In this document: one piece after another, positions 4,159-46,394 of the stretch
Position numbering within the stretch: the first letter of the stretch is position 1
Layout of the letters: each line of letters starts with the position of its first letter
NCBI RefSeq assembly: GCF_030295405.1
Contig: NZ_AP027080.1
Coordinates: forward strand, 2,960,001 to 3,024,000
Direction: 5' to 3'
Source of the DNA: Mesoterricola silvestris
GTDB taxonomy: Bacteria > Acidobacteriota > Holophagae > Holophagales > Holophagaceae
DNA length: 64,000 nt
Notes under the pieces: model-generated
The model's database searches: none
Told to the model about the DNA's origin: nothing
The model's input: the letters and a program-made list of their open reading frames with translations, nothing else
Made by a program: the position numbers and the translations under genes

Positions 4159-4172
4159 GGGTCCTCTCCCTC

Positions 4173-5696: not shown

Positions 5697-5705
5697 GGCG
5701 ATCTC

Positions 5706-6002: not shown

Positions 6003-6047
6003 GAAGAGCCTCCAGGCCCTCCCTGCGCAAAGGCTGTGCCGGGTCTG

Positions 6048-6356
6048 TCAGGCCAGGAAATCCAGGTGGCCTTCGGCAGGAATTGCCGGTTCCCCCCAGG
6101 ACTCCCGCTCGTCCCCTTCCTCCGGACTTTCGCCCTTCTCCTTGCCACGCGGCTGCTGCCGGCCCTGACGCTCCTCCGTGCGCATGGCGTCGGCCTTTGG
6201 TATTAATGGAACATTATTCTGTTCCTGCGTCATCTGGTCGTCCACGTTCCTTCGGTGGGCGGCATCCCTGGCCTGCAGCTCATGGACGCCCTGGGCTTCC
6301 CGGAGGGCTTCCAGGTTCGCGGTCTGGAACGATTGGCGCAGGGTGAGGGGGTTCAT
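6048..6356 (-). CDS. Small charged protein of the flgM operon, unknown function
   Basis: This 102-residue, very hydrophilic protein lies between flgM (12 bases upstream) and the FlgN-position gene (45 bases downstream). It opens with a predicted helix (MNPLTLRQSFQTANLEALRE). A Glu/Lys/Arg/Gly-rich low-complexity middle follows, and it ends in HLDFLA. It lacks a signal peptide and Cys residues. I cannot assign a function. Its tight placement in the operon and a consistent frame suggest a real gene rather than chance. It could be a flagellar accessory or adaptor protein. Confidence 0.55.
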   Translation of the reverse strand: MNPLTLRQSFQTANLEALREAQGVHELQARDAAHRRNVDDQMTQEQNNVPLIPKADAMRTEERQGRQQPRGKEKGESPEEGDERESWGEPAIPAEGHLDFLA

Positions 6357-6368
6357 GGGCGCGGACCG

Positions 6369-6665
6369 TCAAGGCTCCTGGCGCACGGGGGTGTGTTCGC
6401 GCACGAGGCCGTCGGCCACGGCATCCCCGTCGGGGTTGTAGGCGTCCGCGTCGATCCGGGCGCGGATGGCCTCGACCTTCTCCTGGCGCACGTCGGGAAT
6501 GGCCTCCAGCCGGGCCCGGGCCACGGAGATGAAGTGCGCCCCGTTGGAAACGCTGAGGGCATCGGCCGCCACGGGGGCCCCCACGGGGCCCGTGGAAGCG
6601 GGCTGCGCCCCGCCGCCCACCTTCTGGGAGGCTCCCGGCGCTCCGGTCTTGATTGAAACCCTCAT
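6369..6665 (-). CDS. flgM: FlgM, anti-sigma-28 factor
   Basis: FlgM binds FliA (sigma-28) until the hook is complete and is then exported, releasing late gene expression. The 98-residue protein has the usual disordered Gly/Ala/Pro-rich first half. The conserved C-terminal FliA-binding helices contain RLEAIPDVRQEKVEAIRARI and the following DAYNPDGDAVADGL (about residues 52-88). It is the first gene after the sigma-28-type promoter at 6688-6714. It would therefore feed back on its own operon, as in enteric bacteria. A GGTGAG stretch precedes the ATG. Confidence 0.93.
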   Translation of the reverse strand: MRVSIKTGAPGASQKVGGGAQPASTGPVGAPVAADALSVSNGAHFISVARARLEAIPDVRQEKVEAIRARIDADAYNPDGDAVADGLVREHTPVRQEP

Positions 6666-6687
6666 TTCTCACCTCACCTCGATCTTA

Positions 6688-6714
6688 GTATCGGCAGGAG
6701 GCGGGTTCCAATTA
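6688..6714 (-). promoter_or_regulatory. Sigma-28 (FliA)-type promoter of the flgM-flgK-flgL unit
   Basis: On the minus strand, TAAT (6714-6711) is followed after exactly 15 bases by GCCGATAC (6695-6688). The FliA consensus is TAAA-N15-GCCGATAA, so only the last base of each element differs. The start of transcription would fall about 15 bases before the flgM ATG. The placement, just after the rod-binding gene and before flgM, is where class-3 flagellar promoters lie. Confidence 0.8.
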
Positions 6715-6722
6715 AGTTCTGT

Positions 6723-7031
6723 TCATCTGTATTGCTTCGAGGCCTTCAGGGAGGACTCCAGGCGTTCACTCAGACCCCAGGTCTTCCCGCTGTCCATGGC
6801 ATGGTTGACGACGGCCTGGTCAAGCAAATATTCATACGTGCCCCGGGCGGAATCGTTGGTGCCGAAAAGGCCCGAGGGGTGCACCGTCTTGCGCATCTCC
6901 TTGAAGAGATTGGCCATCAGGAGGCCCTCGAACTGCTTGGCGGCTTCCTTGGCATCCTTCCCGCCGGGGAGGGCGGGGGTCACCAGGTCCTGGGCCGGGA
7001 CCGCGGCGGCGGGCAGGATGGGGGCGCTCAC
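6723..7031 (-). CDS. Flagellar rod-binding protein (FlgJ N-terminal domain only)
   Basis: This 102-residue protein matches the rod-scaffold half of FlgJ: AAKQFEGLLMANLFKEMRKT near residues 30-49, then GTYEYLLDQAVVN. It lacks the muramidase domain of enteric FlgJ, as is common outside gamma-proteobacteria. Another enzyme must open the peptidoglycan for the rod. It starts at a GTG whose bases overlap the flgI stop as GTGA, so it is translationally coupled to flgI. It is probably the last gene of the flgH-flgI unit. Confidence 0.9.
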   Translation of the reverse strand: MSAPILPAAAVPAQDLVTPALPGGKDAKEAAKQFEGLLMANLFKEMRKTVHPSGLFGTNDSARGTYEYLLDQAVVNHAMDSGKTWGLSERLESSLKASKQYR

Positions 7032-8128
7032 AGGATCCTCAGCTCGGCGTTCAGGGCGCCGGCGTCCTTCATGGCCTGGAGGATGGCCACCAGGTCCCGG
7101 GGGGTGACCCCGACATTGTTGAGCATTTCCGCGAGCCGGCCCACGGTGGTGCCGGGCTCCAGGGTCAGGGACTTCACCTTTTCGTCCTCGGCCTTCACCT
7201 CGCCGGTGGCGGTGGTGGTGGTCCGCCCCTTGCTGAGGGGCTTGGGCTGGCTCACCTGGGCGGTGTTCGTTACGGAGATGGACAGGCCGGCCTGGACGAT
7301 GCTCACGGCGCCGATGTGCACGTCCGAACCCATGATGACTGTGCCGGTCTTCTCGTTCACCACCACCCGGGCGTGGGACTGCAGTTGGATGGGCAGGTTC
7401 TCGAGCCGGGCCACCAGCTCCACGATGCGCCCCTGGAACTCCGAGGGCACCGGCACCTCCACGGTGCGCGCGTCCAGGGCCCGGGCCGGGGCCGAGGGCA
7501 GTTCCTGGTTGATGGCCTTGACCACGCGCACGGCGGTGGTGAAGTCCTCCATGAGCAGGTTGTACCGCAGCACCTTGCGGTCGTTGAAATTGCCGCCCAC
7601 CTCCCGCTCCACCAGGCCCCCTTCGGGGATGCGGCCCGCGGTGGGGTGGTTCTTGGTGTTGGAGGCGCCGGCGGTGGCCACGGAAAAGCCGCCCACCAGG
7701 AGGGGGCCCTGGGCCACCACGTACACCTGGCCGTCGGGGCCCTGGAGGGGGGTCATGAGGAGGGTTCCGCCGGCCAGGGACGAGGCGTCGCCGTTGGAGC
7801 TGACCGTGACGTCCACCCGCTGGCCGGGTCTGCCGAAGGCGGGCAGTTCGGCCGTGACGATGACCGAGGCCACGTTCTTCACGTTCACGCCGGTGGTGGG
7901 GATGCTGATGCCCTGGCGGGCCATGAGATTGGCCAGGCTCTGGATGGTGAACTTGGACTGGATGGTGTCGCCCGTGCCCTTGAGGCCCACCACGAGGCCG
8001 TAGCCCAGGAGCATGTTGCCCCGCACGCCCTGGAGGGAGGCCACCTCCCGCAGCGGGAGGTCGATGCCCTTGTCGGGGAGGGCTGCCGCCAGGAGGGCGG
8101 GGGCGAGGAAAAGGAGGAGTCTGCGCAT
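7028..8128 (-). CDS. flgI: FlgI, flagellar P-ring protein
   Basis: FlgI forms the periplasmic P ring around the rod. The 366 residues begin with a Sec signal peptide (LLLFLAPALLAAALP), as expected for the family. The conserved start VASLQGVRGN...LLGYGLVVGLKGTGD follows. The family pattern continues to the C-terminus (LVAILQAMKDAGALNAEL). A diderm envelope is required for this ring. It lies 10 bases after flgH and overlaps the rod-binding gene by 4 bases. AAGGAGGAG sits just inside the first codons, and GGCGGGA precedes the ATG. Confidence 0.96.
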   Translation of the reverse strand: MRRLLLFLAPALLAAALPDKGIDLPLREVASLQGVRGNMLLGYGLVVGLKGTGDTIQSKFTIQSLANLMARQGISIPTTGVNVKNVASVIVTAELPAFGRPGQRVDVTVSSNGDASSLAGGTLLMTPLQGPDGQVYVVAQGPLLVGGFSVATAGASNTKNHPTAGRIPEGGLVEREVGGNFNDRKVLRYNLLMEDFTTAVRVVKAINQELPSAPARALDARTVEVPVPSEFQGRIVELVARLENLPIQLQSHARVVVNEKTGTVIMGSDVHIGAVSIVQAGLSISVTNTAQVSQPKPLSKGRTTTTATGEVKAEDEKVKSLTLEPGTTVGRLAEMLNNVGVTPRDLVAILQAMKDAGALNAELRIL

Positions 8129-8138
8129 GGGTCCCGCC

Positions 8139-8819
8139 TCAGAACGGCCAGATGAAGGACAGGAGGCGGCTCACGTAGCCCGGCTTCAGGGTCTCGTCCA
8201 CCACGCCCTGGCCGCCGTAGCCCACGCGCAGCTCGGCCACTTGTGCCGAGCCGATGGTGTTGGCGGTGTCCAGGCGCGCGGGATCGAGCATCCCGGCCAC
8301 GTACAGGCGCTGCTTCTCGTTGTTGAGCTGGATGTCCCGGTATCCCTCGAAGATCAGGTTCCCGTTGCCCAGGACCTTCACCACCCGGGCGGTGATGGTG
8401 GTGGTGAACAGGGCGCTGCGGTCCGTGACGCCGTTTCCGGCGTACTTGTTCGTGGTGGCGGTCTTGAAGCCCCCGGTGGCCGCGGCCCCGCTGCCCACCC
8501 CCACGCTGGCCAACCGGCTGAAGAGCGACGGGGAGGTGAGGGTGTTGGACCCGGCCCGGGAGGTGGTGACGTCGGCCTTGGAGGTGGCCGTGGTGGATTC
8601 CGTGATCTTGATGGTCACCAGATCGTTGAGGCGGTGGGCCCGCAGATCGGCCACCGTGAGGCGGTCCTGCCACAGGGAGCCGTCCGAGAGGGGCGCGGCG
8701 GCCGGGCCCTCCTCGGCGTAGGGGATCCGGGGCTGCTTGGTGAGACTGGGATCATGGGTCTTGGGGATGGAGCACCCCAGGACCAGAACTCCGACCGCGA
8801 TGGGCAAAAGATACCGCAT
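8139..8819 (-). CDS. flgH: FlgH, flagellar L-ring lipoprotein
   Basis: FlgH builds the outer-membrane L ring. The chosen ATG at 8819 gives a 226-residue lipoprotein with a short signal and lipobox LVLGC (Cys at residue 15), with GGAGG a few bases upstream. A longer in-frame start at 8900 would put the signal peptide internally and is rejected. Family marks include SLWQDRLTVADLRAHRLNDLVTI and the C-terminal GYGGQGVVDE. It is the first gene of the leftward flagellar block here. flgF, flgG and flgA, often adjacent in other genomes, are not in the window. Confidence 0.94.
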   Translation of the reverse strand: MRYLLPIAVGVLVLGCSIPKTHDPSLTKQPRIPYAEEGPAAAPLSDGSLWQDRLTVADLRAHRLNDLVTIKITESTTATSKADVTTSRAGSNTLTSPSLFSRLASVGVGSGAAATGGFKTATTNKYAGNGVTDRSALFTTTITARVVKVLGNGNLIFEGYRDIQLNNEKQRLYVAGMLDPARLDTANTIGSAQVAELRVGYGGQGVVDETLKPGYVSRLLSFIWPF

Positions 8820-32467: not shown

Positions 32468-33223
32468 ATGGAAACCAAAGGCCACCTCCTCATTGCCGAC
32501 GACGAGGAAGCGTATCTCCGGACCATCGCCCAGCTGCTGGTCCTCCACGGGTTCACGGTGGACTGCGCCTCCAGCGCCACCCAGGCCCGGGAGATGCTGG
32601 AACAAAAGCGGTACGACGTCCTGGTGTCGGACATCCAGATGCCGGGCCTGCCGATCCTGGACCTGGTGCGCCAGATTCCGGCCCTGAACGGGGGCCTGCC
32701 CGTGGTGCTCATGACCGGCCACCCCTCCATGGACACCGCCCTGGAGGCCATGGGGAACGCCGTCCTGGCATACCTGGTCAAGCCGGTGCAGTCCCAGGAG
32801 CTGGTCATGCACATCCAGACCGGGGTGCGGCTAAGGAAGGTCCAGGCCCTGGCCCTGGAGTCCTCCAACCGCCTCCAGACCTGGGCCGACGAAATGAAGG
32901 CCATCGAGGCCGATATCCGGTCCGCCCCCGCCTCCATGGGCGTCATGCCCCTGGGCGGCCTGGTGGGCCTGGTGCTGGGGAACCTCGCCTCCTCCACCCT
33001 GGAGCTCAAGCAGCTCCTGGACCTGGCCCTCCAGGCGAACCCGGGCCAGGGGGTGTGCGGCATCCGGGAATGCCCCCGCCTGGGGCTGTACCAGGAGGCC
33101 ATCCGTTCGGGTATGGAAACCCTCGAGCACACCAAGAGCGCGTTCAAATCCAAGGAGCTCGGAGACCTGCGAAAGAAGTTCGCGGATCTGCTGAAGGGGA
33201 CGGCCGACACGTCGGTATCTTGA
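32468..33223 (+). CDS. Response regulator with uncharacterised C-terminal region
   Basis: The N-terminal receiver domain (residues 1-125) has acidic residues at 11-14, phospho-acceptor Asp55 (VLVSDIQMPG), Thr in LMTGHPS and Lys in LVKPVQS, so it should be phosphorylatable. The remaining 125 residues are helical with a Gly-rich centre. They have two Cys (GVCGIRECP) and no DNA-binding or enzymatic motif I recognise. It is the first gene of the rightward signalling block. The promoter of the large kinase overlaps its stop codon. It may be a partner of that kinase. Confidence 0.85.
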   Translation: METKGHLLIADDEEAYLRTIAQLLVLHGFTVDCASSATQAREMLEQKRYDVLVSDIQMPGLPILDLVRQIPALNGGLPVVLMTGHPSMDTALEAMGNAVLAYLVKPVQSQELVMHIQTGVRLRKVQALALESSNRLQTWADEMKAIEADIRSAPASMGVMPLGGLVGLVLGNLASSTLELKQLLDLALQANPGQGVCGIRECPRLGLYQEAIRSGMETLEHTKSAFKSKELGDLRKKFADLLKGTADTSVS

Positions 33224-33391
33224 CAAATCCGATCCTCTTTCCATAATTGCCCTGATCAAGCCGTCCCTCGGGGACATTCGCCTTGGCGGGCAGGATGCGG
33301 TCCTGCAAGTTGAAGGCGCCCGCCTGGAGCTGGGGTACTCCCGCTGCCGGGTCTGTGCTTCCTTTAGGCGCGTCTAGACCCGGGATTCCCC
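33220..33391 (+). promoter_or_regulatory. Promoter and structured leader of the hybrid kinase gene
   Basis: TTGACA at 33220-33225 and CATAAT at 33242-33247, 16 bases apart, form a near-consensus sigma-70 promoter. The -35 box contains the stop codon of the preceding gene. The leader of about 135 bases has a stem ggcggg/cccgcc around a small hairpin (cagga-tgcgg-tcctg). It also has the motif cctgcaagttgaaggcg (33302-33318), which recurs with two changes in the leader at 37243. I cannot match it to a known riboswitch. Confidence 0.55.
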
Positions 33392-36300
33392 ATGCACGTG
33401 AAACTCCTCCTCGTCGAGAATTCCGAGGCCCAGGCGCAGGTCGTCCTGCGCCCCCTGCGGGAGGCGGGCTTCGAGGTCGCCGCCGAGCGGGTGGCCTCCT
33501 CCCAGGACCTCCGGGCCGCCCTGGACCGGGAGACCTTCGATCTGGTCCTTTGCCAGCACGCCCTTCCGGGGCTTTCCTACACCAAGGTGCTCTCGGACCT
33601 GCTGGCCAAGGCCCCCTCCCTGCCCTGCATCGTCCTGGCCGCCCTGGGCGACGAGGACCTGGTGAGCCGGGCGCTGCGCCTGGGCGCCCGGGATTTCATC
33701 TCCATGGGCCGCCTGTCCCGGCTGCCCCAGGCGGTGCGGCGCGAACTGGCCCACGGCCCCCGCCGCGGCGAGGCGGCCCCCGCCCCGGAGCCCCCGGAGA
33801 CCGGCCTCCTGGAGGACCTCATGGACGAGGCCTACGGCCTCCACGAGGTGATCTTCGACGCGCAGGGAGAGCCCGCGGACTTCCGCTTCGTGAGGCTGAA
33901 CCCCGCCTACGAGCGCCTCACGGGCATCACGGCCCCGGAAGTCATCGGACGCTCGGCCCTGGAGCTTTTCCCGGACATCTCCAGGGACTGGATCCGGAAG
34001 TTCGGCGCGGTGGCCCTTTCCGGCCAGCCCCTGGCGGTGGACGACTACCGCAGCCTGCGGGGGCGGACCTTCGCGGGCCTCGCCTTCTGCCCCCAGCCGG
34101 GCCATTTCGCGGTGCTGTTCAACGACGTCACGGCGGCCCAGGACCTGGAGACCACCAAGGAGCGCCTGGCCACGGCGGTGGAGCAGATCAACGAAGGCAT
34201 CTTCATCGCGGACCTGGCGGGCACCCTCCTGTACGTGAACCCGGCCCTGGAGCGCATCCTGGGCACCGGGCCCGGCGCGGCCCTGGGCCAGCCCGTGGCC
34301 AAGATCCTGCCCGGGCTCCCCCTGGAGGACCCGGGGGCCGAGTGGCAGGGGCGGTTTCCGGGGCTTCCCGGGGACGGGCGCGCCCAGATCCTGGAGTGCA
34401 CCCTGGCCCCGGTGCGGGACGCCTCCGGCAGGCCCGCTTCGCGCGTGGGCATCGTCCACGACGTCACCCGCGAGGTGGACACCGAACGCAGCCTGCGCCA
34501 GATGGAGAAGATGAAGGCCCTGGCGGAGGTGGCGGGGGGCGTCTCCCACGACTTCAACAACCTGCTCGCGGCCATCCTCAGCGCCACCGAGCTCATCGAG
34601 TGGCAGCTGGCCGCCGACAGCCCCATCCGCCTCAAGCTCCAGGTGATCTACCAGGCCGTGACGCGGGCCGGGGAGCTCAACCGCCAGATCCTGGCCTTCA
34701 GCCGCACCCCGGAGGAGAAGAGCGAATCCCTCGACCTCTCCCTGGTGGTGAAGGAGGCCATCCAGCTGGTGCGCTCCACCTTCCCGGCCACCGTGCAGGT
34801 GCGCTCGGCCCTGGCCGCGGGCCTTTGGACCCGGGGCAACGCCAGCCAGCTCCACCAGGTGGTCATGAACCTGTCCATCAACGCCCTCCAGGCCATGCTC
34901 CCCGCCGGAGGCACCCTGGAATTCACCCTGGAGGCCCCGGAGGAGGGCACCGCCCTCCTCACCGTCAAGGACTCCGGCTGCGGCATGGATCCGGCGGTCC
35001 TGGAGCGGGTCTTCGAGCCCTTCTTCACCACCAAGGAGCGCACGGAAGGCAAGGGGCTGGGCCTTTCCGTCGTCCACGGCATCGTGCACGCCCACGGCGG
35101 ATCCATCACGGTGCGCAGCGAACCGGGCCAGGGGAGCGTCTTCCAGGTGGCCCTGCCCTGCAGGATCCCCGAGGCCCCCGCGGCCCTCGGTTCCGCCGGC
35201 GAACCCACGGGGCACGAACGCATCCTCTTCGTGGACGACGAGGAGGTCCTCAGCGCCCTGGGCAAGCAGGGCCTCCAGATGCTGGGGTACCGCGTCACCT
35301 CCCGCTCCGACGCCCAGGAGGCCCTGGAGGAGGTCACCCACCACCCCCAGGACTTCGACCTCCTGGTCACCGACCTCTCCATGCCCAACATGTCCGGCGT
35401 GGAGCTCACCCAGAAGATCCGCCGCATCCGGCCCGACCTTCCCGCCATCCTCATCACCGGCGCCTTCCAGGACCCCGTGCCCCTGGAGGGCATGGCCACC
35501 CCCTTCGCCCAGGTGCTCCTGAAGCCCGTGACCATCCTGGACATGGCCAAGGCCGTCCGGAAGGTCATGAGCCTGCGCCCCGCGCCCCCCGCCAGGGCCG
35601 AGGCCCCCGCGGAACCCCGGGCCGAGGGGGCCTCGGTCATCCTCCTGGCCGAGGACAGCCAGACCACCCGGAGCCTGCTGCGCAGCTGGCTGGTGAAGGC
35701 CGGCTACGCGGTGGACGAGGCCCGGGACGGCCAGGAGGCCTGGGAGGCCCTGGAGCGCAACCCGGGGCGCTATTCCATCCTCGTCACGGACATCGTCATG
35801 CCCCGCATGGACGGGCTCCGCCTCTCGGGCAAGGTGCGCGGCCTGGACGCCTCCATCCCCATCCTGATGCTGAGCTCCACCGACGACGCCGAGTCCGTCA
35901 AGGAGGCCCTTCACCTCCACGTGAGCGAGTTCCTCACCAAGCCCTTCGAGTCCGCCATGCTGGTGGCCACGGTGGAGCGGCTCTGCGCGGACCAGGCCAC
36001 GCGGGTGAAGGTCATGCGCAGCCACGAGACCGCCCAGGCCGTGCGCATGGCCCAGCGCGCCATGGAGGCCATCCCCGAGAAGGGCATGCCCATCTACTCC
36101 ATATCGGAACCCCTCACCGACGCCGGCGGGGACGTGTTCCGGGCCTTCCGCAGGGAGGACGGGTCCATCTTCTTCGCCATCGCCGACGTGGCGGGGCACT
36201 CCGTGATCAGCTCGTACGCGGTGGCGGCCTACCTGGGCATGCTCACCAACTTCCTGGCCACGGACCTGGACCTTCGGGCCCTGGCCTTCAAGCTGAACCG

Positions 36301-37162
36301 CGCCATCCAGGCCGGGCCCTTCGCGGAGGTGCCCATCTGCGGCCTGTTCGGGCACTGGAACCCGGCCACGGGGCGCATCCACCTCCTGAACGCCGGGATC
36401 CCCCACGCCCTCTGGCACCGCGCCACCCGCGGCGCCACGCGGGCCATCGCCATCAACGGCGCCCCCCTTGGCATCCTGGACGAACCCATCGTGGAGGAGA
36501 AGGTGGTGATCCTGGCCCCCGGGGACCGCCTGCTGCTGGGCAGCGACGGCTTCTTCGACGCCCTCTCCGCGGACGGCACGGCCTTCGTGGACCTGGCGGG
36601 GCCCATCTGGGAGAACCTGCGGGGCACGGACATCTTCCAGGCCATCAACCTGGTCTCCGCGGCGGCCCGGGCCCACGCCGGGGGGAGTTTCGGCGACGAC
36701 CTGCTGGTGGTGGCCCTGGAACAGCCTCCCCTGGCTGCGGACCCCGACGGGCTCGGCCTGGACCTGCCCGCGGACCTGGGGGCCATCGACGGCGCCTGCG
36801 ACCAGCTCGAGGCCTTCCTGGACAGCCGCGGGTGGGAGGCCCCCCCGGGGGGCCAGGGCCGCTACGATACGCTCCTGGCCGTGCGGGAGGCCCTCTCCAA
36901 CGCCATCCTCCACGGCTGCGCCGGGGATGGCGCCGCCTCCGTCCACCTCTCGGCCCGGAAGGTCCCGGGGAACGGGTTCCGGATCGCCGTGGTGGATGCG
37001 GGCCAGGGCTTCGACCTGGGCGCCCACACCCCCCCCGACACCGCCTCCTCGGAACGGGGCCGCGGCATCCCCCTCATGCAGTTCTTCGCGGACCGGGTGG
37101 CCATGGTGGGCGGTGAGCTGGCCATGGATTTTCACCAGACCAACACCTCTTTTGTTGATTGA
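33392..37162 (+). CDS. Hybrid histidine kinase fused to PP2C phosphatase and RsbW-type kinase
   Basis: This 1256-residue soluble multi-domain protein is ordered as follows. A receiver-like domain (1-125) has Gln55 at the phospho-acceptor site, so it is probably inactive. PAS domains lie at about 145-250 and 258-370. A HisKA domain has SHDFNN (His386). A HATPase (470-592) has N box NLSINALQ and GKGLGLSVV. Receivers with Asp661 and Asp800 follow. A PP2C/SpoIIE phosphatase (about 895-1110) has DAGGD, IADVAGH, GSDGFFD and GDDLLV. A C-terminal GHKL anti-sigma kinase domain (about 1120-1256) has REALSNAILHG, VVDAGQGFD and RGRGIPLM. It thus holds both enzymes of a partner switch. The next gene encodes a STAS protein, the expected substrate. 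Confidence 0.92.
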   Translation: MHVKLLLVENSEAQAQVVLRPLREAGFEVAAERVASSQDLRAALDRETFDLVLCQHALPGLSYTKVLSDLLAKAPSLPCIVLAALGDEDLVSRALRLGARDFISMGRLSRLPQAVRRELAHGPRRGEAAPAPEPPETGLLEDLMDEAYGLHEVIFDAQGEPADFRFVRLNPAYERLTGITAPEVIGRSALELFPDISRDWIRKFGAVALSGQPLAVDDYRSLRGRTFAGLAFCPQPGHFAVLFNDVTAAQDLETTKERLATAVEQINEGIFIADLAGTLLYVNPALERILGTGPGAALGQPVAKILPGLPLEDPGAEWQGRFPGLPGDGRAQILECTLAPVRDASGRPASRVGIVHDVTREVDTERSLRQMEKMKALAEVAGGVSHDFNNLLAAILSATELIEWQLAADSPIRLKLQVIYQAVTRAGELNRQILAFSRTPEEKSESLDLSLVVKEAIQLVRSTFPATVQVRSALAAGLWTRGNASQLHQVVMNLSINALQAMLPAGGTLEFTLEAPEEGTALLTVKDSGCGMDPAVLERVFEPFFTTKERTEGKGLGLSVVHGIVHAHGGSITVRSEPGQGSVFQVALPCRIPEAPAALGSAGEPTGHERILFVDDEEVLSALGKQGLQMLGYRVTSRSDAQEALEEVTHHPQDFDLLVTDLSMPNMSGVELTQKIRRIRPDLPAILITGAFQDPVPLEGMATPFAQVLLKPVTILDMAKAVRKVMSLRPAPPARAEAPAEPRAEGASVILLAEDSQTTRSLLRSWLVKAGYAVDEARDGQEAWEALERNPGRYSILVTDIVMPRMDGLRLSGKVRGLDASIPILMLSSTDDAESVKEALHLHVSEFLTKPFESAMLVATVERLCADQATRVKVMRSHETAQAVRMAQRAMEAIPEKGMPIYSISEPLTDAGGDVFRAFRREDGSIFFAIADVAGHSVISSYAVAAYLGMLTNFLATDLDLRALAFKLNRAIQAGPFAEVPICGLFGHWNPATGRIHLLNAGIPHALWHRATRGATRAIAINGAPLGILDEPIVEEKVVILAPGDRLLLGSDGFFDALSADGTAFVDLAGPIWENLRGTDIFQAINLVSAAARAHAGGSFGDDLLVVALEQPPLAADPDGLGLDLPADLGAIDGACDQLEAFLDSRGWEAPPGGQGRYDTLLAVREALSNAILHGCAGDGAASVHLSARKVPGNGFRIAVVDAGQGFDLGAHTPPDTASSERGRGIPLMQFFADRVAMVGGELAMDFHQTNTSFVD

Positions 37163-37338
37163 CATATGCGACCCGGGCCCGATACTGACTTGGATTTCAT
37201 CCGGCCATCGGGCTCGGGTGAGCCTGACGGGCGGGGCTCGGACCTGCAAGTCGAGGGCGCGATCCCACGGACCATCCTGGTTTCCGTGGGTCGCGCCCTC
37301 GTTCCGTTTTCCACCAGCCCTTGACCGGGAGGAACCAG
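37159..37338 (+). promoter_or_regulatory. Promoter and leader of the STAS/chemosensory block
   Basis: TTGACA (37159-37164, overlapping the kinase stop) and GATACT (37181-37186), 16 bases apart, form a good sigma-70 promoter. The overlapping TTGA-N15-CCCGATAC also resembles a FliA site. The leader has a GAGCC/GGCTC hairpin and the motif cctgcaagtcgagggcg (37243-37259) shared with the leader at 33302. The second half of that motif is also the 5' arm of the terminator hairpin that follows, so attenuation is possible. Confidence 0.55.
37252..37310 (+). terminator. Rho-independent terminator or attenuator before the STAS gene
   Basis: A very stable stem pairs 37252-37270 with 37284-37301 (18 base pairs with one bulged T). 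It encloses a 13-base loop and is followed by ttccgtttt. It lies about 30 bases ahead of the STAS start and downstream of a promoter, so it is either an attenuator of the operon or the end of a short RNA. Confidence 0.75.
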
Positions 37339-37653
37339 ATGCCAGCCGATAAACCCAGCCCCGCCGATTCCAGCACCCTGAGGATCCCCTCGGGCGGGAA
37401 CCTGGTGGCCAGCACCGTGGAGGCCCGCCGCAAGGCCGCCATGGAGGCCCTGGCGGCCCCCTGCACCGAGGCGGTCCTGGACCTCACGGAATCCGAGGTC
37501 GTGGATTCCCTGGGCATCACCCTCATCCTGGGCCTGTTCAAGACCTGCCAGCAGCGGAAGATCCCCTTCCGGGTGGAGGGGGCCAACGCCGACCTCATGC
37601 GGGTCTTCAGGCTGTTCAGCCTCCCCAAGCTCTTCCCCATCATGGAGAGGTAG
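37339..37653 (+). CDS. STAS-domain anti-anti-sigma factor-like protein
   Basis: The 104-residue STAS protein has the loop VVDSLGITLILGL. Ser57 fits the phosphorylated serine of SpoIIAA/RsbV. Phosphorylation by the RsbW-like domain and dephosphorylation by the PP2C domain of the preceding gene product are the natural inference. The ATG at 37339 follows GGGAGGAA. It lies one base before cheA, so the switch may act on the chemosensory array instead of a sigma factor. No sigma factor is adjacent. Confidence 0.88.
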   Translation: MPADKPSPADSSTLRIPSGGNLVASTVEARRKAAMEALAAPCTEAVLDLTESEVVDSLGITLILGLFKTCQQRKIPFRVEGANADLMRVFRLFSLPKLFPIMER

Positions 37654-37654
37654 G

Positions 37655-40339
37655 ATGGTCAGCCTGGCGGATGAAAGCATCATCGCCGATTTCGTGGCGG
37701 AAAGCCGGGAGCACCTGGGGTCCATCGAACCCGACCTCCTGGCCATGGAGGACCTGGGCGCCCAGGTGTCCCAGGAGGTCATCAACCGGGTGTTCCGGGC
37801 CATCCACAGCCTCAAGGGCGGCGCGGGGTTCTTCGCCTTCGAGGCCCTCAAGCGCCTGAGCCACGCCATGGAGAGCGTGCTGATGCTGGTGCGGGACGGC
37901 AAGCTCCATCCCACGCCGGACCTCATGGACACCCTGTTCACGGGGGTGGACCGCCTGCGGGCCATGCTCGACGACATCCACGCCAGCGACAACGTGCCCT
38001 GCACCGCGGAACTCGCGGCCCTGGACGCCATCCTCGGCGGCCAGGGCGTGAATCTCTCCGAGACGGTCAAGGGCCGGGAGAAGGGCTCCAAGCGCGACTT
38101 CGACCTGGACGCCGAGGGCGTGCGCTCCGCCCTGCGCCGGGGCATGAACCTGTACCATGCCATCGCCTACCTGCACCACGACATCAAGGACCAGGGCCTG
38201 GCCCCCCTGGCCTTCCTCAACAACGCCCTGTCGGTGGGCACCTGCCTGGACGCATTCATCGACGTGGAGGCCATCGCGGACCTGGAGCACTGCCTGGAGC
38301 AGGACCTGCCCGTGACCCTCCTCTTCGCCAGCGTGCTCGAGCCCGAACTGGCGGCCCTTGCCCTCCGGCTCCCCGCGGACCAGGTCAAGGTGCTGGAGGT
38401 GAAGGCCCTCAAGGAATCCCTCAAGGCCAAGGCCAAGGCCGCCAAGCCCGCCGAAGCCCCCCCGGCCCCCGCGGAGGCGCCGGCCGAAGCCGGCCCCGGG
38501 GAGAGGTCCGAGCCCCGGGGACCCTCCGCCAAGGAAGGCGGCCACGAGACCCTGCGGGTGCGGGTGGACCTGCTCACGAACCTCATGAACCTCGCCGGCG
38601 AGCTGGTGCTGGGGCGCAACCAGCTGGTGAGGGCCATCGCGGAGTACCGGGGCGAGATCCCGGGCCTGGGGGCGATCCTCCAGAACGTGAACCAGGTGAC
38701 CACCGAGATGCAGGAAGGCATCATGCAGACCCGCATGCAGCCCATCGGCACGGTCTTCAGCCGCTTCCCCCGCATCATCCGGGACATGAGCCGGCAGCTG
38801 GGCAAGCAGATCGAAGTGCGCATCGAAGGCGCCGAGGTGGAGCTGGACAAGTCCATCGTCGAGATGCTCGTGGACCCCCTCACCCACATCATCCGCAACT
38901 GCGCCGACCACGCCATCGAGCTTCCGGCGGAACGCAAGAAGGCCCGGAAGGCCCCCACCGGGACCATCCACCTCCACGCCTTCCACGAGGGGGGCCAGAT
39001 CAACATCGCCGTGCGCGACGACGGGCGGGGCATCGATTCCAGGAAGGTGCTGGACAAGGCCGTGGCCAAGGGCCTGGTCACCAAGGCCCAGGCGGCGGAG
39101 ATGACCGAACGCGAGATCGTGCACCTGGTGTTCGCCCCGGGCTTCTCCACCGCCGAGACCGTCTCGGACATCTCCGGGCGCGGGGTGGGCATGGACGTGG
39201 TGCGCACCAACGTGGAGAAGCTGGGGGGCCACGTGGAGGTGGAGACGGAGGTGGGCCTGGGCACCACCGTGCGCCTTCGCCTGCCCCTGACCCTGGCCAT
39301 CATCCCCTCCATGATCGTGGGGGTCGCCGACCACCGCTTCGCCATCCCCCAGGTGAACGTCGTGGAATTCGTGTGGGTCAAGGCCTCCGAGGTCACGGCG
39401 CGCATCGAGCAGGTGCAGGGCGCCCTGGTGCTCCGGCTCCGGGACAAGCTCCTGCCCCTGGTGCGCCTGGCGGACGTGCTGGGCATCCCCCGGGTCTTCA
39501 GCGATCCGGGCACCGGGGAGCGGCTTCCCGACCGCCGCGACGCCATCGCCGACCGGCGCGGGGCCGGTTCCCAGGAGGACGCCCGGGACCGGGACCGCAG
39601 GTCGGACTGGCGCAGCGACCACAACATCATCGTGCTGCGGGTGGGCAAGAACCAGTACGGCGTCATCGTGGACGAGCTGTTCGACATCGAGGAGATCGTC
39701 GTCAAGCCCCTCTCCACCTTCATCCAGGGCACCAAGTGCTTTTCCGGGGCCACCATCCTGGGCGATGGCCGGGTGATCATGATCCTGGACGCCGGCGGCC
39801 TCTCCTCCGCGGCCCAGCTGCACTTCTCGGACCTGCAGGCCGAGGAGCTCCGCCGGGCCGAGGAGGAGAGGCGCAGCGCGGCCCTCAAGGCCTCCCGGCG
39901 CCGGTCCGTCATCCTCTTCGAGGGGGCCCGGGGCGAGCGCTTCGCCGTGCCCCAGGACCACGTCCTCCGCCTGGAGCGCATCGTCCGGTCCCGGATCGAA
40001 TTCATCGGCGAGCGCGAATACATCGAGTACCGCGGCGAGGGCCTGCCCCTGCTGCGCCTGGACCGGCATCTGGAAGTGCGGCCCCTGGACCGGAACCTGG
40101 AGGAGCTCTTCCTGGTCATCCCCAAGGTGCCCGGCCAGGATTCCACCGCCAGGCCCCCGGCGGGCATCCTCATCTCCGAGATCCTGGACGCCCTGGACGT
40201 GGAGGTGGAGCTCAAGCAGGTGGAATTCCAGGGGCCCGGCCTGCTGGGCTCGGCGGTGGTGCAGGACCACCTGACCCTGTTCCTGGACCCGGTGAACCTG
40301 CTGCGGGCCGCGGGCCTCATGGGAGGTGACGCCGCATGA
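37655..40339 (+). CDS. cheA: CheA chemotaxis histidine kinase with two CheW-like domains
   Basis: This is an 894-residue CheA. HPt (1-110) has the phosphorylated His51 in [13 protein letters not shown] helical region and a Lys/Ala/Pro linker (250-290) follow. The dimerisation domain is about 300-360. The ATPase has [19 protein letters not shown] and GRGVGMD. There are two CheW-like domains (547-715 and 750-890). The first CheW domain is interrupted by a highly charged insertion at about 620-655 (Arg/Asp-rich). Tandem CheW domains are unusual in a CheA and suggest extra array contacts. It overlaps cheW by 4 bases. Confidence 0.95.
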
Positions 40340-40794
40340 CCCAGTTCGCCACCTTCCGCGTGGGGGAACGCCTGTTCGGCCTGGACATCCTCGGGGTCCG
40401 GGAGATCATCCGCGTCTCCAACATCACCACGGTTCCCCGGTCCGAGGCCCACATCCGGGGCCTCATCAACCTCCGGGGCCAGATCGTCACCATCCTGGAC
40501 CTGTCGGTGCGCCTGGGCCACGAGCCCGCCCCGGTGGGGGACTCCAGCCACATCGTCATCCTCAAGCAGGCCGCCGCGATCCAGGCCGGCGGCCAGACCC
40601 AGGGCGGCACTTCCGACCTCATGGGCCTCCTGGTGGACGCCATCGGGGACGTGGTGGAAGCCGACGCGGCCCTGGCCGAAGCCCCCCCCGCCAACCTCAC
40701 CGACGCCGAGGAGCGCTTCCTGTCGGGCGTCCTGAAGACGGACGCGGGCCTCCTCGTCCTCCTGAACATTCCCCAACTCCTTTCCAGCAACTGA
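40336..40794 (+). CDS. cheW: CheW, chemoreceptor-kinase coupling protein
   Basis: The 152-residue CheW couples receptors to CheA. It has the pattern [20 protein letters not shown] and [18 protein letters not shown] (about residues 40-57), then [14 protein letters not shown]. The start overlaps the cheA stop as ATGA. A 23-base gap with GGGAGAA leads to the MCP gene. Confidence 0.95.
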
Positions 40795-40817: not shown

Positions 40818-43121
40818 ATGCAATTCCTCGACAACATCAAGATGGGACCCAAGCTCATCTCCGCCTTCCTGGTCACGGCCGCCATCGCCGTGGTCATCGG
40901 CATCTTCGGGGTCACGCGGCTCAACGCCATCCAGGCCGCGGACACCAAGCTGTACGAGAAGATGCTCATCCCCGTCGGCCAGCTGGGCGACGCGGATCAG
41001 CTCAACCAGCGCCTGCGCGTGAACATGCGCGACGCGGTCATTTCCGGCGACGTGGAGCGCTTCGAGCGCCGCTACGACGAGATCGTGGCCCTGGCCGCCG
41101 CCCAGGAGAACGAGTACGACAAGGCCATCCTCACGGATGCCGGCCGGGCCGCCTTCGAGAAGTACAAAGCCATCAAGAAGACGTCCCTCGAATCGAACAA
41201 GAATGTCTTCGCGCTCCTCCGGGCCGGCAAGAAGGCCCAGGCCACGGACCTGATCTACGGGGCCAACTACCGGAACGTGCAGGACCTGAACAAGGTCTCC
41301 GAGGAACTGAGCAAGCTCAAGCTCAAGATCGCCAAGGACACCGCGGACGAGAACACGTCCCTCGCCAGGTCGGCCACCCAGGCCATGATCACCCTCATGG
41401 CCGTGGGCTTCCTCCTGGCCATCGGCCTCGGCGTCGTCATCGCCCGGTCCATCACGCGCCCCATGGCCCTGGGGGTGGACATGATGAACGAGATGGCCAA
41501 GGGGCACCTGAAGACGCGTCTGCGCATGGCGCGCCGGGACGAGATCGGCGAACTGGCCCAGGCCATGGACGGGTTCACGGACAACCTCCAGGGCATGGTC
41601 GGAGGCCTCGGGGAGATCGCCAAGGGCGACCTGAACCGCGAATGGACGCCCACCGACGCCCAGGACGAGATCAATCCGGCGCTGCGCACCGTGCGCGCGA
41701 ACCTCCTCGCGCTGGTGGAGGACGCGGCCATGCTCAACAAGGCCGCCATGGACGGCAAGCTCGCCACCCGCGCCGACGCCACCCGCCACCAGGGCGATTT
41801 CCGCCGCGTGGTGCAGGGCGTCAACGACACCCTGGACGGCGTCATCAACCCCATCAACGAGGTGCAGCGGGTCATGGGCGCCATGGAGCAGGGCGACCTC
41901 ACCGCGCGCATCACCGCCGACTACAAGGGCGACCTCCAGAACCTGCGCAACGCCGTGAACAACACCGCCACCCGCCTGGCCCAGGCGCTCACGGAGATCA
42001 GCGGCGCCTCCAACACCCTGGCCTCCAGCGCCGACGAGCTCACGGCGACCTCGGCCACCATGGCCGGCAGCGCGGAGCAGATGACGTTGCAGGCCAACAC
42101 CGCCGCCGCCGGCACGGAGCAGGCGTCGGCCAACGTGAAGAACATGGCCGCCGGCGTGGAGGAGATGAGCGCCAACGCCAACACCGTGGCCTCGGCCTCC
42201 GAGCAGGTTTCGGCCAACCTGCGCACCGTGGGCGCCGCGGTGGAGCAGATGTCCTCCAACATGAAGACCATCGCCGCCTCCACGGAGCAGATGACGAGTT
42301 CGGTGAACACCGTGGCCACGGCCATCGAGGAGATGAGCGTGAGCCTCAACGAGGTCTCCAAGAACTCGGGCCAGGCCGCCACCGTGGCCGGCAAGGCCTC
42401 CCGCAGCGCCGCCAGCACCGCCGAGACCGTCAACAAGCTGGGCCGCAGCGCCCAGGAGATCGGCAAGGTGGTGGACATGATCAAGGGCATCGCCGCCCAG
42501 ACCAACCTGCTGGCCCTGAACGCGACCATCGAGGCCGCGAGCGCGGGCGAGGCCGGCAAGGGCTTCGCCGTGGTGGCCAACGAGGTGAAGGAGCTCGCCA
42601 AGCAGACCGCGGGCGCCACCGAGGAGATCCGGGCCCAGGTGGAGGACATGCAGGGCAACACCCAGCAGGCCGTGAGGGCCATCGACGACATCGTCCAGAT
42701 CATCGGCGAGATCAACGCCATCTCGGCCAATATCGCCGCGTCGGTGGAGGAGCAGACCGCCACCACCAACGAGATCTCCAAGAACGTGGGCTACGCCGCC
42801 CGGGGCGCCTCGGAGGTGGCCCGCAACGTGCAGCAGGCCGCCACCGGCACCAACGAGGTCAGCCGCAACGTCCAGGAGGCCGTCAAGGGCGTCACCGACA
42901 TCTCCCGCAACATCAACCAGCTGGCCCAGGGCGCCGGGGACGTGGCCCGGAACGCCGGCGAAGCCTCCAAGGGCATGAACGACGTCTCCCGCAACGTGGC
43001 CCTGGTGAGCACCGCCGCCCGGGAGACCACCCGGGGCGCCGGCGACACCAACAACGCCGCCAAGGAACTGGCGCGCCTGGCGGAGAAGCTGCAGCAGAAC
43101 GTCTCGCGGTTCAGGCTCTAG
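40818..43121 (+). CDS. Methyl-accepting chemotaxis protein
   Basis: This 767-residue receptor has a first membrane helix at about 14-34 and a four-helix periplasmic ligand domain (35-190). The second membrane helix is at about 195-217 ([20 protein letters not shown]), with a HAMP pattern ([16 protein letters not shown]). A further HAMP-like repeat lies before the long Ala/Ser-rich signalling coiled coil. The hairpin tip reads [21 protein letters not shown], the conserved kinase-control region with Ala at a usually Arg-containing site. It is the only receptor in the cluster. The ligand is unknown. Confidence 0.93.
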
Positions 43122-43148: not shown

Positions 43149-43997
43149 ATGGCCGCCGGGACCATCCAACCCTCCGACTTCCGCCTCATGCGGGACTACA
43201 TCGAGAAGAACTGCGGCATCGTCCTCGGGGAGGAGAAGGCCTACCTGGTGGAGACGCGCCTGGCGGGCCTCCTCATGGAAACGGGATGCATGGACTACGG
43301 CGAACTGTACCGCCGCGCCTGCGGCGAGGCCGGCACCGCCATGCGCGACAGGATCGTCGACGCCATGACCACCAACGAGACCCTCTGGTTCCGGGACGGG
43401 CATCCCTTCGAGATCCTCCGGGACGTCCTGCTGCCGGAACTGGCGGCGCCCCTCATGGCGGGCCTGCGCTTCCGCATCCGCATCTGGTCCGCGGCCAGTT
43501 CCACGGGCCAGGAGCCCTATTCCATCGCCATCACCATCCACGAATTCTGCAGGAACAACCCCGGCGTGCGGCCCGAACAGTTCGAGATCCTGGCCTCGGA
43601 CATCTCCCCCTCGGCGCTCTACCTGGCCCGGGCGGGACGCTACGACGCCGCGGCCCTCGGCCGGGGGATGCCCGACGACCTGCGGGCGCGGTACTTCAGG
43701 CAGGACGGCCAGGTCTGGGTGGTGGACGATGCGGTGAAGCGGATGGTCACCCTCAAGAAGTTCAACCTGCAGGACCCCCTGGATGCCCTCGGGCGCTTCG
43801 ATATCGTGTTCTGCCGCTACGTCACCATCTACTTCTCGGACATCTTCAAGCGCCAGATCTTCGAGGGCATCGCGAGGCTCACGGCCCAGGGCGGCCACTT
43901 CTTCACCAGCGCGGTGGAGAACCTCCAGGCCTCCGACGATCTCTTCGCGCCCATCTACCACGGCTCGGGAACCTACTACCGGAGCCTCAAAACCTAG
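43149..43997 (+). CDS. cheR: CheR-type receptor methyltransferase (first copy)
   Basis: The 282-residue CheR methylates glutamates of chemoreceptors using SAM. The N-terminal helical domain is followed by MTTNETLWFRD, the SAM site IWSAASSTGQEPYSIAI, ASDISPSALYLARAG and FCRYVTIYF. The AASS in the SAM loop replaces the usual A/S-C-S. It is about 60% like the second copy at 45154 by eye. It lies 27 bases after the MCP gene. Confidence 0.94.
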   Translation: MAAGTIQPSDFRLMRDYIEKNCGIVLGEEKAYLVETRLAGLLMETGCMDYGELYRRACGEAGTAMRDRIVDAMTTNETLWFRDGHPFEILRDVLLPELAAPLMAGLRFRIRIWSAASSTGQEPYSIAITIHEFCRNNPGVRPEQFEILASDISPSALYLARAGRYDAAALGRGMPDDLRARYFRQDGQVWVVDDAVKRMVTLKKFNLQDPLDALGRFDIVFCRYVTIYFSDIFKRQIFEGIARLTAQGGHFFTSAVENLQASDDLFAPIYHGSGTYYRSLKT

Positions 43998-44032: not shown

Positions 44033-45157
44033 ATGCCCTCTCCCAAGCTCAGGATCCTCATCGTGGACGATACGGCGGTCTACCGCCGGATCCTCACGGA
44101 GGTCGTCGAGTCCCTCCAGTTCGCCTGCGAGATCACCGCCTGCCCCAGCGGGAGGCTGGCCCTCCAGCGCCTGGACCAGGCGCCGGCGGACCTGGTGCTC
44201 CTGGACGTTGAGATGCCCGACATGGGCGGCATCGAGACGCTGCGCCTCCTGCGGGCGCGCCACCCCGGAACGGGGGTGATCATGATCAGCGGCACCACCT
44301 CCGCCGCCGCGGCCTACACCGTGGAGGCGCTGGCCCTGGGAGCCATGGAATTCGTGCAGAAGCCCGAGGGGGTGGACGCCGACGCCAGCCGGGCCGAACT
44401 GCGGGACATCCTTCGCCCGCTGGTCCGTCACGTCCAGACCCGCGCCAACCTGCGCTTTCCCGTTCCTTCGGCGCCCGCCCCGGCCCCGCCGCGGGGCGCC
44501 GCGGCCCTGCCCGCGCCCCAGCCCCTTCCGCCGCCTCCCCCCCGCCGGCACGCCCCCGGACCCGGGCGCTTCGAGGTGCTGGGCATCGGCGTCTCCACCG
44601 GCGGCCCCAACGCCCTGGGTGAACTCATCCCGGCCCTTCCCGCCAACCTGTCCGTGCCCGTGCTCGTCGTGCAGCACATGCCCCCCCTGTTCACCGCCTC
44701 CCTGGCCGAGCACCTCAACCGCACCTCCCGTCTTCCCGTCCACGAGGCCGTGGAGGGCGAGCCGGTGGTCCCGGGCCGGGTCTACATCGCCCCCGGCGGC
44801 AGGCACATGGTATTGCGCCGGGGACGGGACGGGGACCAGGCCATCATCGGCCTGAACGAGAACCCGCCGGAAAACAGCTGCCGCCCTTCGGTGGACGTGC
44901 TCTTCCGGTCCATGGCCGCGCACTACGGAGGCCATATCCTGGCCGTCGTCATGACGGGCATGGGAAGCGACGGCTGCGAGGGGGTGCGCGCCATGAAGCG
45001 CGCGGGTTGCCACTGCCTCACCCAGTCCGAGGACACCTGCGTGGTGTACGGCATGCCCCTGGCGGTGGACGAGGCGGGGCTCTCGGACGAGCGGGTCCCC
45101 CTGCCCCTCCTGGCCCACCGCATCGCGAGCCTCCTGGGGCCGGGGAGGACCCCGTGA
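44033..45157 (+). CDS. cheB: CheB, receptor methylesterase/deamidase
   Basis: The 374-residue CheB has an N-terminal receiver (Asp58 in LVLLDVEMPDMGG), a Pro-rich linker (145-175) and the esterase domain. The catalytic triad is Ser188 (GVSTGG), His215 (VVQHMPP) and Asp313 (MTGMGSDG). CheA phosphorylation should activate it to counter the two CheR enzymes. The ATG at 44033 has no strong ribosome-binding site. It overlaps the next gene as GTGA. Confidence 0.95.
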   Translation: MPSPKLRILIVDDTAVYRRILTEVVESLQFACEITACPSGRLALQRLDQAPADLVLLDVEMPDMGGIETLRLLRARHPGTGVIMISGTTSAAAAYTVEALALGAMEFVQKPEGVDADASRAELRDILRPLVRHVQTRANLRFPVPSAPAPAPPRGAAALPAPQPLPPPPPRRHAPGPGRFEVLGIGVSTGGPNALGELIPALPANLSVPVLVVQHMPPLFTASLAEHLNRTSRLPVHEAVEGEPVVPGRVYIAPGGRHMVLRRGRDGDQAIIGLNENPPENSCRPSVDVLFRSMAAHYGGHILAVVMTGMGSDGCEGVRAMKRAGCHCLTQSEDTCVVYGMPLAVDEAGLSDERVPLPLLAHRIASLLGPGRTP

Positions 45158-46020
45158 GTCCCGACGCCCTGTCCAGCGCCGAGTTCCGGCTGCTCCGGGA
45201 CTACATCCAGGAGCACTGCGGCATCTGCCTGGGGGAGGAGAAGGCCTACCTCATCGAGGCCCGCCTCACGGGGCTCCTGGCCCGGCACGGCTGCCCCGAT
45301 TTCGGCACCTTCTACCGCCTGGCCAGGAACGCCTCCTCCCCGGCGCTCCGGGAGGAGGTCATCGACGCCATGACCACCAACGAGACCCTCTGGTTCCGGG
45401 ACACCCACCCCTTCACGATCCTCCGGGAGAAGCTGCTGCCCCCCCTCGCCGACGGGATCCTCCGGAAGACCCGCGGCCGGGTCCGCATCTGGTCCGCGGC
45501 CTGCTCCACGGGGCAGGAGCCCTATTCCATCGCCATGGCCATCCTGGAGCACTGCCGCCTCAACCCCGGGGTGAACCCCGCCCAGTTCGAGATCCTGGCT
45601 TCGGACATCTCCCCCTCGGCCCTTTTCCTGGCCCAGGCGGGGCGCTACGACGAGAACGCCATGCGCCGGGGCCTCCCGGAGGACCTGAAGGAGCGCTACT
45701 TCCACCGCGAGGGCCCGGCCTGGTCCGTGAACGACGAGGTCAGGCGCCTGGTCACCTTCCGGAAGTTCAACCTGCAGGATTCCATGGACCCCCTGGGCCC
45801 CTTCGACGTGGTGTTCTGCCGCTACGTGACCATCTACTTCGCCGACGAGTTCAAGCGGCGCATCTTCGCCGGGATCGCCAGCCTTCTGGCCCCTTCCGGC
45901 CATCTCCTCATCAGCGCGGTGGAATCCCTCCGGGGCATCGCCGACCAGCTCCTGCCCATGACCCATGCGGGCGGCCTCTACTACCAGTGCGATCCCTCGA
46001 TTCCAGGAGGCGAAAAATGA
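45154..46020 (+). CDS. cheR: CheR-type receptor methyltransferase (second copy)
   Basis: This 288-residue CheR closely resembles the first, with identical MTTNETLWFRD and ASDISPSAL blocks and SAM loop WSAACSTGQEPYSIA. The start GTG is inside the cheB stop. The copies on either side of cheB look like a duplication that has diverged. Unlike the first copy it keeps the common Ala-Cys-Ser SAM loop. It may serve different receptors. Confidence 0.94.
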   Translation: MSPDALSSAEFRLLRDYIQEHCGICLGEEKAYLIEARLTGLLARHGCPDFGTFYRLARNASSPALREEVIDAMTTNETLWFRDTHPFTILREKLLPPLADGILRKTRGRVRIWSAACSTGQEPYSIAMAILEHCRLNPGVNPAQFEILASDISPSALFLAQAGRYDENAMRRGLPEDLKERYFHREGPAWSVNDEVRRLVTFRKFNLQDSMDPLGPFDVVFCRYVTIYFADEFKRRIFAGIASLLAPSGHLLISAVESLRGIADQLLPMTHAGGLYYQCDPSIPGGEK

Positions 46021-46394
46021 AGATCCTGTCCGTGGACGATTCCACCACCATGAGAAGGATCATCGGCCGCGTGGTGGGCATGCTGGGCTACGACTTCGCC
46101 GAGGCCTCCAACGGCGTCGAGGCCCTGGACCTGCTGGCCCGGGACCACGCCGACATCGCCCTGGTGATCATGGACATCAACATGCCGGAAATGGACGGCA
46201 TCACCTGCCTCCAGTCCATCAAGGCCGACCCCGCCCTGCAGGCCCTCCCGGTCATGATGGTCACCACCGAATCGGACCGCGCCCGGGTCATCCAGGCCGT
46301 CCAGGCCGGCGCCGCCAACTACGTCACCAAGCCCTTCAGCCACGACGACCTGGTGGCCAAGATCGCATCCACCCTCGGCTCGGACGAGTTCTAA
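46017..46394 (+). CDS. cheY: CheY-type single-domain response regulator
   Basis: This 125-residue receiver has acidic Asp7-Asp8, phospho-acceptor Asp53 (VIMDINMPEMDG), Thr in MVTTESD and Lys in YVTKPF. It overlaps the second cheR as ATGA and follows AGGAGG. As the last gene of the operon it is the natural output of CheA, to the flagellar switch or to pilus motors. FliM-binding cannot be judged from sequence alone. Confidence 0.92.
   Translation: MKILSVDDSTTMRRIIGRVVGMLGYDFAEASNGVEALDLLARDHADIALVIMDINMPEMDGITCLQSIKADPALQALPVMMVTTESDRARVIQAVQAGAANYVTKPFSHDDLVAKIASTLGSDEF

Follow-up and report, generated by a model that had tools for sequence, protein, structure and literature searches.

In a 64,000-nucleotide window of the Mesoterricola silvestris genome (NZ_AP027080.1, positions 2,960,001 to 3,024,000), we identified a 1256-residue hybrid histidine kinase (HK) that is fused to a bifunctional partner-switch regulator and encoded beside a STAS gene and a chemosensory cluster. 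Judged from the alignments, the conserved core of this system is formed by the third receiver (REC3), a PP2C phosphatase, an RsbW-type kinase and the STAS protein next to CheA; the second receiver (REC2) and the HK are dispensable across the family Holophagaceae. We propose, with moderate confidence, that the hybrid is a regulator of the HsbR/CrsR type with a hybrid HK fused in front, and that it would serve as an output arm of the adjacent CheA system.

Anatomy of the hybrid protein and the neighbouring STAS protein

The hybrid gene (33392-37162, + strand) is an open and complete reading frame with an ATG start. Pfam searches and motif inspection gave the domain order REC(dead)-PAS-PAS-HisKA-HATPase-REC-REC-PP2C-RsbW-type HATPase, which bears out the order given in a first-pass annotation of the sequence, including the dead first receiver and the two receivers with an intact Asp. 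Three Response_reg stretches, two PAS domains, HisKA (residues 377-439) and HATPase_c (483-590) were followed by SpoIIE (923-1110, E 4e-25) and HATPase_c_2 (1125-1238, E 1e-16), so that a PP2C phosphatase and an RsbW-type kinase are indeed fused behind receivers, as had been claimed. REC1 carries Gln55 instead of Asp and has also lost its Lys, while the phospho-sites of REC2 (Asp661) and REC3 (Asp800) are intact. In the HK, the phospho-acceptor His and the N, G1, F and G2 boxes are present (SHDFNN, INALQAM, DSGCGM, FEPFFTT and GKGLGL). The RsbW-type kinase has its own N-box (REALSNAILHG), G1 (DAGQG) and G2 (SERGRGI). The PP2C metal-binding Asps (D914, D932, D1052, D1102/D1103) are invariant among orthologues, as are Asp800 and Lys850 of REC3, the receiver that stands directly before the PP2C domain. 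Pfam detected no HPt domain in the chain that could relay phosphate from REC2 to REC3. CckA types were the best full-protein NCBIfam matches, the CckA equivalog scoring 298 bits, below its cut-off of 1000.

A predicted structure of the REC3-PP2C-kinase part (mean pLDDT 81, with uncertain inter-domain placement) matched Pseudomonas aeruginosa RssB (REC-PP2C) and the RsbU-RsbW fusion of Rv1364c (3ke6). The next gene encodes the STAS protein with Ser57 that the first-pass annotation had reported (37339-37653; Pfam STAS E 2e-9; DSLG motif). Its AlphaFold model (mean pLDDT 82) lay nearest to SpoIIAA and RsbV from kinase complexes. The STAS fold with a D-S-x-G phospho-site is present, and Asp56-Ser57 is invariant in 10 aligned orthologues. 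By fold and phospho-site motif, the protein is predicted to be a SpoIIAA/RsbV-type anti-sigma factor antagonist. Beyond what had been annotated, we found that the STAS gene abuts cheA, which starts one base past the STAS stop, and a full chemosensory cluster in the order STAS-CheA-CheW-MCP-CheR-CheB-CheR-CheY. Among the cluster genes, no CheD was seen, which together with an aer2-like receptor would point to the F7 chemosensory class, and no sigma or anti-sigma gene lies within the operon.

The back half is constant and the front half varies

We aligned the back half of 13 sequences (alignment A3). The REC3 Asp and Lys, every PP2C metal Asp and the N, G1 and G2 boxes of the kinase were invariant. 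The front half gave a different picture. The REC1 phospho-site reads Q, E, Q or A within the genus, and Asp occurs only in L044; the PAS domains differ in number and type among orthologues. Five of the six extra-genus sequences have E, S, V, T or A in place of REC2 Asp661; the sixth (L042, genome G052) still has an Asp there, but its acidic pocket is gone. Both L042 and L043 (genome G051) lack the N, G1 and F boxes of the HATPase; the H-box His is absent in L042 but retained in L043. These two loci (L042, 11877-15410, - strand; L043, 1131-3827, - strand) are natural pseudokinase versions in which the partner-switch half is intact.

In the closest pairs, dN/dS ranged from 0.13 to 0.39 per domain, with PP2C among the lowest and HisKA at 0.14, showing that all domains of the hybrid are under purifying selection there. 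The fusion is not an assembly artefact or a pseudogene, because several independent genomes carry full-length orthologues, which have diverged at synonymous sites and show dN/dS values in this range. A decayed or spurious fusion without function is hardly credible in our view: REC1 is dead and front domains decay in some relatives, yet every domain is constrained in close pairs and the back-half catalytic motifs are complete in all orthologues. As the front half varies and the back half is constant, the conserved input is therefore REC3, and not a phosphorelay running from the HK through REC2 to the output. The locus had been read as a single-protein link from a phosphorelay to a partner switch; a two-component input remains plausible, but the relay part of that claim is weakened by the missing HPt, by the dispensable REC2 and HK, and by the invariance of REC3-PP2C-kinase-STAS.

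The hybrid, STAS and CheA are inherited together

Orthologues of the hybrid back half were found in 14 of 77 Holophagaceae genomes, including the window genome. The STAS gene and the CheA of the cluster had the identical distribution, being present in these 14 genomes and absent from the remaining 63. In all 14, the gene order hybrid-STAS-CheA is constant and adjacent, and further che genes follow wherever the contig extends. Outside Holophagaceae, single-sequence and profile searches of 396 sampled Acidobacteriota genomes found no full-length back half; the profile search scored no more than the three best candidates of each genome, and the other matches covered just REC or REC-PP2C. A scan of genome contigs for the back half matched just two records, both Holophagaceae.

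REC-PP2C matches in G175 and G397 were considered as relatives and rejected, as they adjoin neither a che cluster nor a STAS gene. A plasmid relative was likewise discarded, the single weak REC-PP2C match being from Sphaerotilus and outside any che context; no STAS relatives were found on plasmids.

Proposed mechanism and alternative explanations

We propose that the hybrid probably both adds phosphate to and removes it from the STAS switch protein. With REC3 unphosphorylated, the C-terminal RsbW-type kinase would phosphorylate STAS Ser57. Phosphorylation of REC3 Asp800 would, through the REC3-linker helix, activate PP2C and/or silence the kinase, so that Ser57 would become dephosphorylated. 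Unphosphorylated STAS would then bind its downstream partner, which may be the kinase domain of the hybrid or some other regulator. We infer each phosphotransfer step and the identity of the donor, and take the polarity by analogy from HsbR, CrsR and SypE. REC3 could receive phosphate from two sources, the in-cis HK responding to PAS signals and CheA responding to MCP signals, and CheA is a likely phosphodonor beside the in-cis kinase. As the chain has no HPt, the HK would have to pass phosphate to REC3 directly or through an external HPt; such a domain is present in CheA. Moreover, an HK without ATP-binding boxes in G051 and G052 means that REC3 there needs a trans donor, for which the co-inherited CheA is the best candidate; in such relatives, all phosphate would have to come from CheA or another trans donor. 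The resemblance of REC3 to RssB and CheY receivers, and of REC2 to hybrid-kinase receivers, agrees weakly with a CheA donor. Pairwise identities between receivers were 29% for REC3-CheY2 and 26% for REC3-REC2; assigning CheA cognacy from these values was rejected, as they are too close to decide. Going one step further, the chemoreceptor array and the in-cis PAS HK may converge on REC3, so that the chain would act as a two-input integrator, with the HK decayed to a pseudokinase and CheA left as the main or sole input in a sister lineage. We hold this extension only tentatively.

Several observations weigh against the CheA-linked reading. The case for CheA-to-REC3 transfer is drawn from synteny, co-inheritance and HK decay in only two genomes. 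The genus of the window retains an intact and constrained HK and REC2, and the only donor in this case may therefore be the in-cis kinase. The window genome encodes four CheA proteins. The STAS-cheA unit has a promoter-like site and leader of its own, so that it and the hybrid are not simply transcribed as one. SpoIIE-type phosphatases usually read GHG at the PP2C motif position; the hybrid reads GHS (ADVAGHSVISS, 36182-36214, + strand), which is invariant in 10 orthologues of alignment A1.

A purely in-cis phosphorelay would place CheA as a mere neighbour: the fused HK would pass phosphate to REC2 and on to REC3, directly or via a separate HPt, and STAS would act on a sigma/anti-sigma system. 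In its favour, the genus has intact HK, REC2 and REC3 motifs that evolve under purifying selection, and HsbR of P. aeruginosa receives its input from three hybrid HKs via HptB (PMC6482189). Nevertheless, we consider this arrangement somewhat unlikely, given that the protein lacks an HPt domain, that loss of REC2 and, in two genomes, of the HK leaves REC3, the domains after it, STAS and CheA in place, and that the hybrid, STAS and the CheA of the cluster are strictly co-inherited. The flow could also run in reverse, with STAS acting on CheA as alphaproteobacterial CheS does, so that the hybrid would tune CheA-CheY traffic through STAS phosphorylation rather than a sigma factor. The STAS gene lies one base ahead of cheA and is inherited with it, the operon offers no sigma or anti-sigma gene, and CheS of Sinorhizobium meliloti, which consists of STAS only, binds CheA and changes CheY traffic (PMC12654446). 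A partner-switch substrate is suited better by the invariant DSLG phospho-site and by a fold that, among the structures compared, which did not include CheS, lies nearest to SpoIIAA/RsbV in kinase complexes, and HsbA and CrsA are known binders of FlgM or of the regulator itself, which makes an action on CheA unlikely.

An output through FlgM, in which unphosphorylated STAS would bind FlgM and free the flagellar sigma factor like HsbA of P. aeruginosa, appears quite improbable. Unphosphorylated HsbA does bind FlgM (PMC6482189), and FlgM is encoded in the window (~6369-6584, - strand) amid flagellar genes. However, FlgM is present in 49 of the 63 genomes without the hybrid and in 13 of the 14 with it, being missing in G026 (87% complete). 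This distribution fails to track the cassette, and co-occurrence thus gives no support for FlgM as the STAS target.

Comparison with known systems

The first-pass annotation had stated that the phosphatase and kinase are separate proteins in known partner switches. This is contradicted by the fusions in HsbR, CrsR, SypE and Rv1364c. In HsbR and CrsR the order is REC-PP2C-kinase, and in the published model unphosphorylated HsbR phosphorylates HsbA, whereas phosphorylated HsbR dephosphorylates it (PMC6482189). The hybrid has the same order of receiver, PP2C and GHKL kinase/anti-sigma domains as HsbR, and HsbA Ser56 compares with Ser57 here (PMC6482189). The receiver Asp, PP2C metal Asps, GHKL boxes and an adjacent STAS Ser of the HsbR/CrsR type were all found; the hybrid departs from that type in not standing alone without its own HK. 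In P. aeruginosa the hybrid HKs are separate proteins that act via HptB, whereas here the HK is in the chain and no HPt is fused. SypE of Vibrio fischeri is bifunctional with HsbR-like behaviour in a permuted order, kinase-REC-PP2C (PMC3610818, PMC12826045). One protein phosphorylates and dephosphorylates the STAS protein SypA under receiver control (PMC3610818, PMC8256260), as is predicted here; unlike the hybrid, SypE has no HK fusion, and its gene belongs to the syp polysaccharide locus.

The closest known layout is Che1/CrsR-CrsA of Shewanella oneidensis (PMC9855816, PMC6482189), where the che1 locus encodes CheA1 along with CrsR and CrsA (PMC9855816). Both loci combine a chemosensory cluster (in che1, CheA1, CheW1, CheY1, CheR1, CheB1 and MCPs) with a REC-PP2C-RsbW-kinase regulator and a STAS antagonist, and CheA, CheW, MCP, CheR, CheB, STAS and the phosphatase lie in one cluster here as well. 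CrsR is a stand-alone response regulator, unlike the version in the window, which is fused behind a PAS hybrid HK; che1 also has CheD, and the target of CrsR is RpoS. The early, ancestral F7 clusters of gammaproteobacteria resemble the window in joining che genes with genes for a STAS anti-sigma factor antagonist and a serine phosphatase (PMC7184735), but the genes are separate, no hybrid HK fusion is described and the phylum is another. The front half, PAS-HisKA-HATPase-REC, is that of CckA-type hybrid HKs, from which the PP2C and RsbW output domains are absent. Rv1364c of Mycobacterium tuberculosis contains a PAS sensor as well as a fused RsbV domain and is not known to have a phosphorelay part. 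Its RsbU phosphatase and RsbW kinase are fused as in the hybrid, in line with the structural match of the back half.

The bifunctional switch and its chemosensory association are thus already known. New is a full PAS hybrid kinase fused to a bifunctional regulator inside a CheA operon, together with a natural decay series, neither of which we found in the open-access literature searched; the domain search covered one phylum. The exact full-length order, thought to be undescribed by the first-pass annotation, was also not found in that literature. CheA control of gene expression via partner switches has been suspected for S. oneidensis Che1-CrsRA and early F7 clusters, and a demonstrated CheA-to-regulator step was not reported in the same literature. 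In the present locus, which comes from a different phylum, CheA, STAS and the bifunctional regulator form a single cassette that is inherited as a unit, and its natural variants (live HK, dead HK and dead REC2) make the CheA-to-partner-switch question directly testable in vitro.

A shared RNA leader in front of the two transcription units

Both transcription units, the hybrid gene and STAS-cheA, open with a promoter-like site followed by a common 75-nt RNA element. The consensus scan found 3 promoter-like sites against 0.7 expected. A covariance model (R1) built from 13 copies of the element gave strong matches (E below 1e-9) in 20 of the 77 family genomes; each of these has one or several copies, and some lack the hybrid. 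Base pairs covaried more than in shuffled and slid controls (double changes in 7 pairs; 19 cells vs 6.1), but the alignment was fitted to R1, and some of its sequences had also served to train the model. The last stem of the element often shares sequence with a strong, terminator-like hairpin: in many copies, the 3′ arm of the former runs into the 5′ arm of the latter, after which comes T-rich sequence. This layout resembles a transcription attenuator and suggests an attenuator or a riboswitch. Rfam gave no match for the leader elements other than chance microRNA-type matches. By sequence inspection, the genes after the element (loci L031, L032, L037, L038, L094, L097-L111 and L088) include the hybrid, STAS-cheA, CheW-like (L104, L106), MCP (L108, L109), CheY-like (L111) and an XRE-type regulator (L088). 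The shared leader supports co-regulation of the hybrid with chemosensory genes. A third copy in the window genome (G000:C1:3100161-3100234, L088) lies in the leader of the small XRE-type helix-turn-helix regulator.

Table 1. Features of the hybrid-STAS-CheA locus, in window coordinates
Feature	Position	Strand	Basis or remark
Response regulator, REC and uncharacterised C-terminal region, upstream neighbour of hybrid	32468..33223	+	Response_reg E 5e-22
Promoter-like TTGACA-N16-CATAAT before hybrid gene	33220..33247	+	Consensus scan, 11/12 matches
Structured RNA leader element, copy 1, 5′ leader of hybrid	33251..33324	+	R1 E 9e-23; copy in training set
Hybrid histidine kinase fused to bifunctional partner-switch regulator, 1256 aa	33392..37162	+	Orthologues in 13 other Holophagaceae genomes
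REC1, degenerate, Gln55 at phospho-site	33392..33751	+	Asp retained only in L044 among aligned orthologues
Two PAS domains	33794..34477	+	Pfam
HisKA (His386) and HATPase_c, CckA-like	34520..35161	+	Motifs intact here, degenerate in L042, L043
REC2	35216..35575	+	Asp661 intact here; site lost in most extra-genus orthologues
REC3	35633..35989	+	Asp800 invariant across aligned orthologues
Helical linker REC3-PP2C	35990..36085	+	Long helix 110-146 in model of residues 745-1256
PP2C/SpoIIE-type phosphatase domain	36086..36727	+	Pfam SpoIIE; metal-binding Asps invariant; fold like RssB, Rv1364c
RsbW-type GHKL serine kinase domain (HATPase_c_2)	36764..37105	+	Pfam E 1e-16; N, G1, G2 boxes invariant
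Promoter-like TTGACA-N16-GATACT before STAS-cheA	37159..37186	+	Conserved in L031, L032, L037
Structured RNA leader element, copy 2, 5′ leader of STAS-cheA, then strong hairpin	37191..37265	+	R1 E 2e-21, in training set; fold z -3.75
STAS protein, Ser57 (codon 37507-37509) in DSLG motif	37339..37653	+	Pfam STAS E 2e-9; ATG start
CheA	37655..40339	+	HPt His51 invariant in 12 aligned orthologues
CheW	40336..40794	+	Pfam
MCP chemoreceptor	40818..43121	+	Pfam
CheR	43149..43997	+	Pfam
CheB	44033..45157	+	Pfam
Second CheR	45154..46020	+	Similarity to first CheR; syntenic matches
CheY-like single-domain response regulator	46017..46394	+	Best NCBIfam match CheY PRK10610, E 2e-29

Neighbouring genes

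Elsewhere in the window, the stretch ~3223-8819 (- strand) reads as the flagellar genes flgL, flgK, flgN-like, flgM, flgJ, flgI and flgH, of which FlgM alone was put to a model test. The C-terminal region (~120 residues) of the response regulator at 32468-33223 matched no Pfam family. This regulator is conserved before the hybrid in L031, L032, L037 and L038, and a related one is found in L039 and L040.

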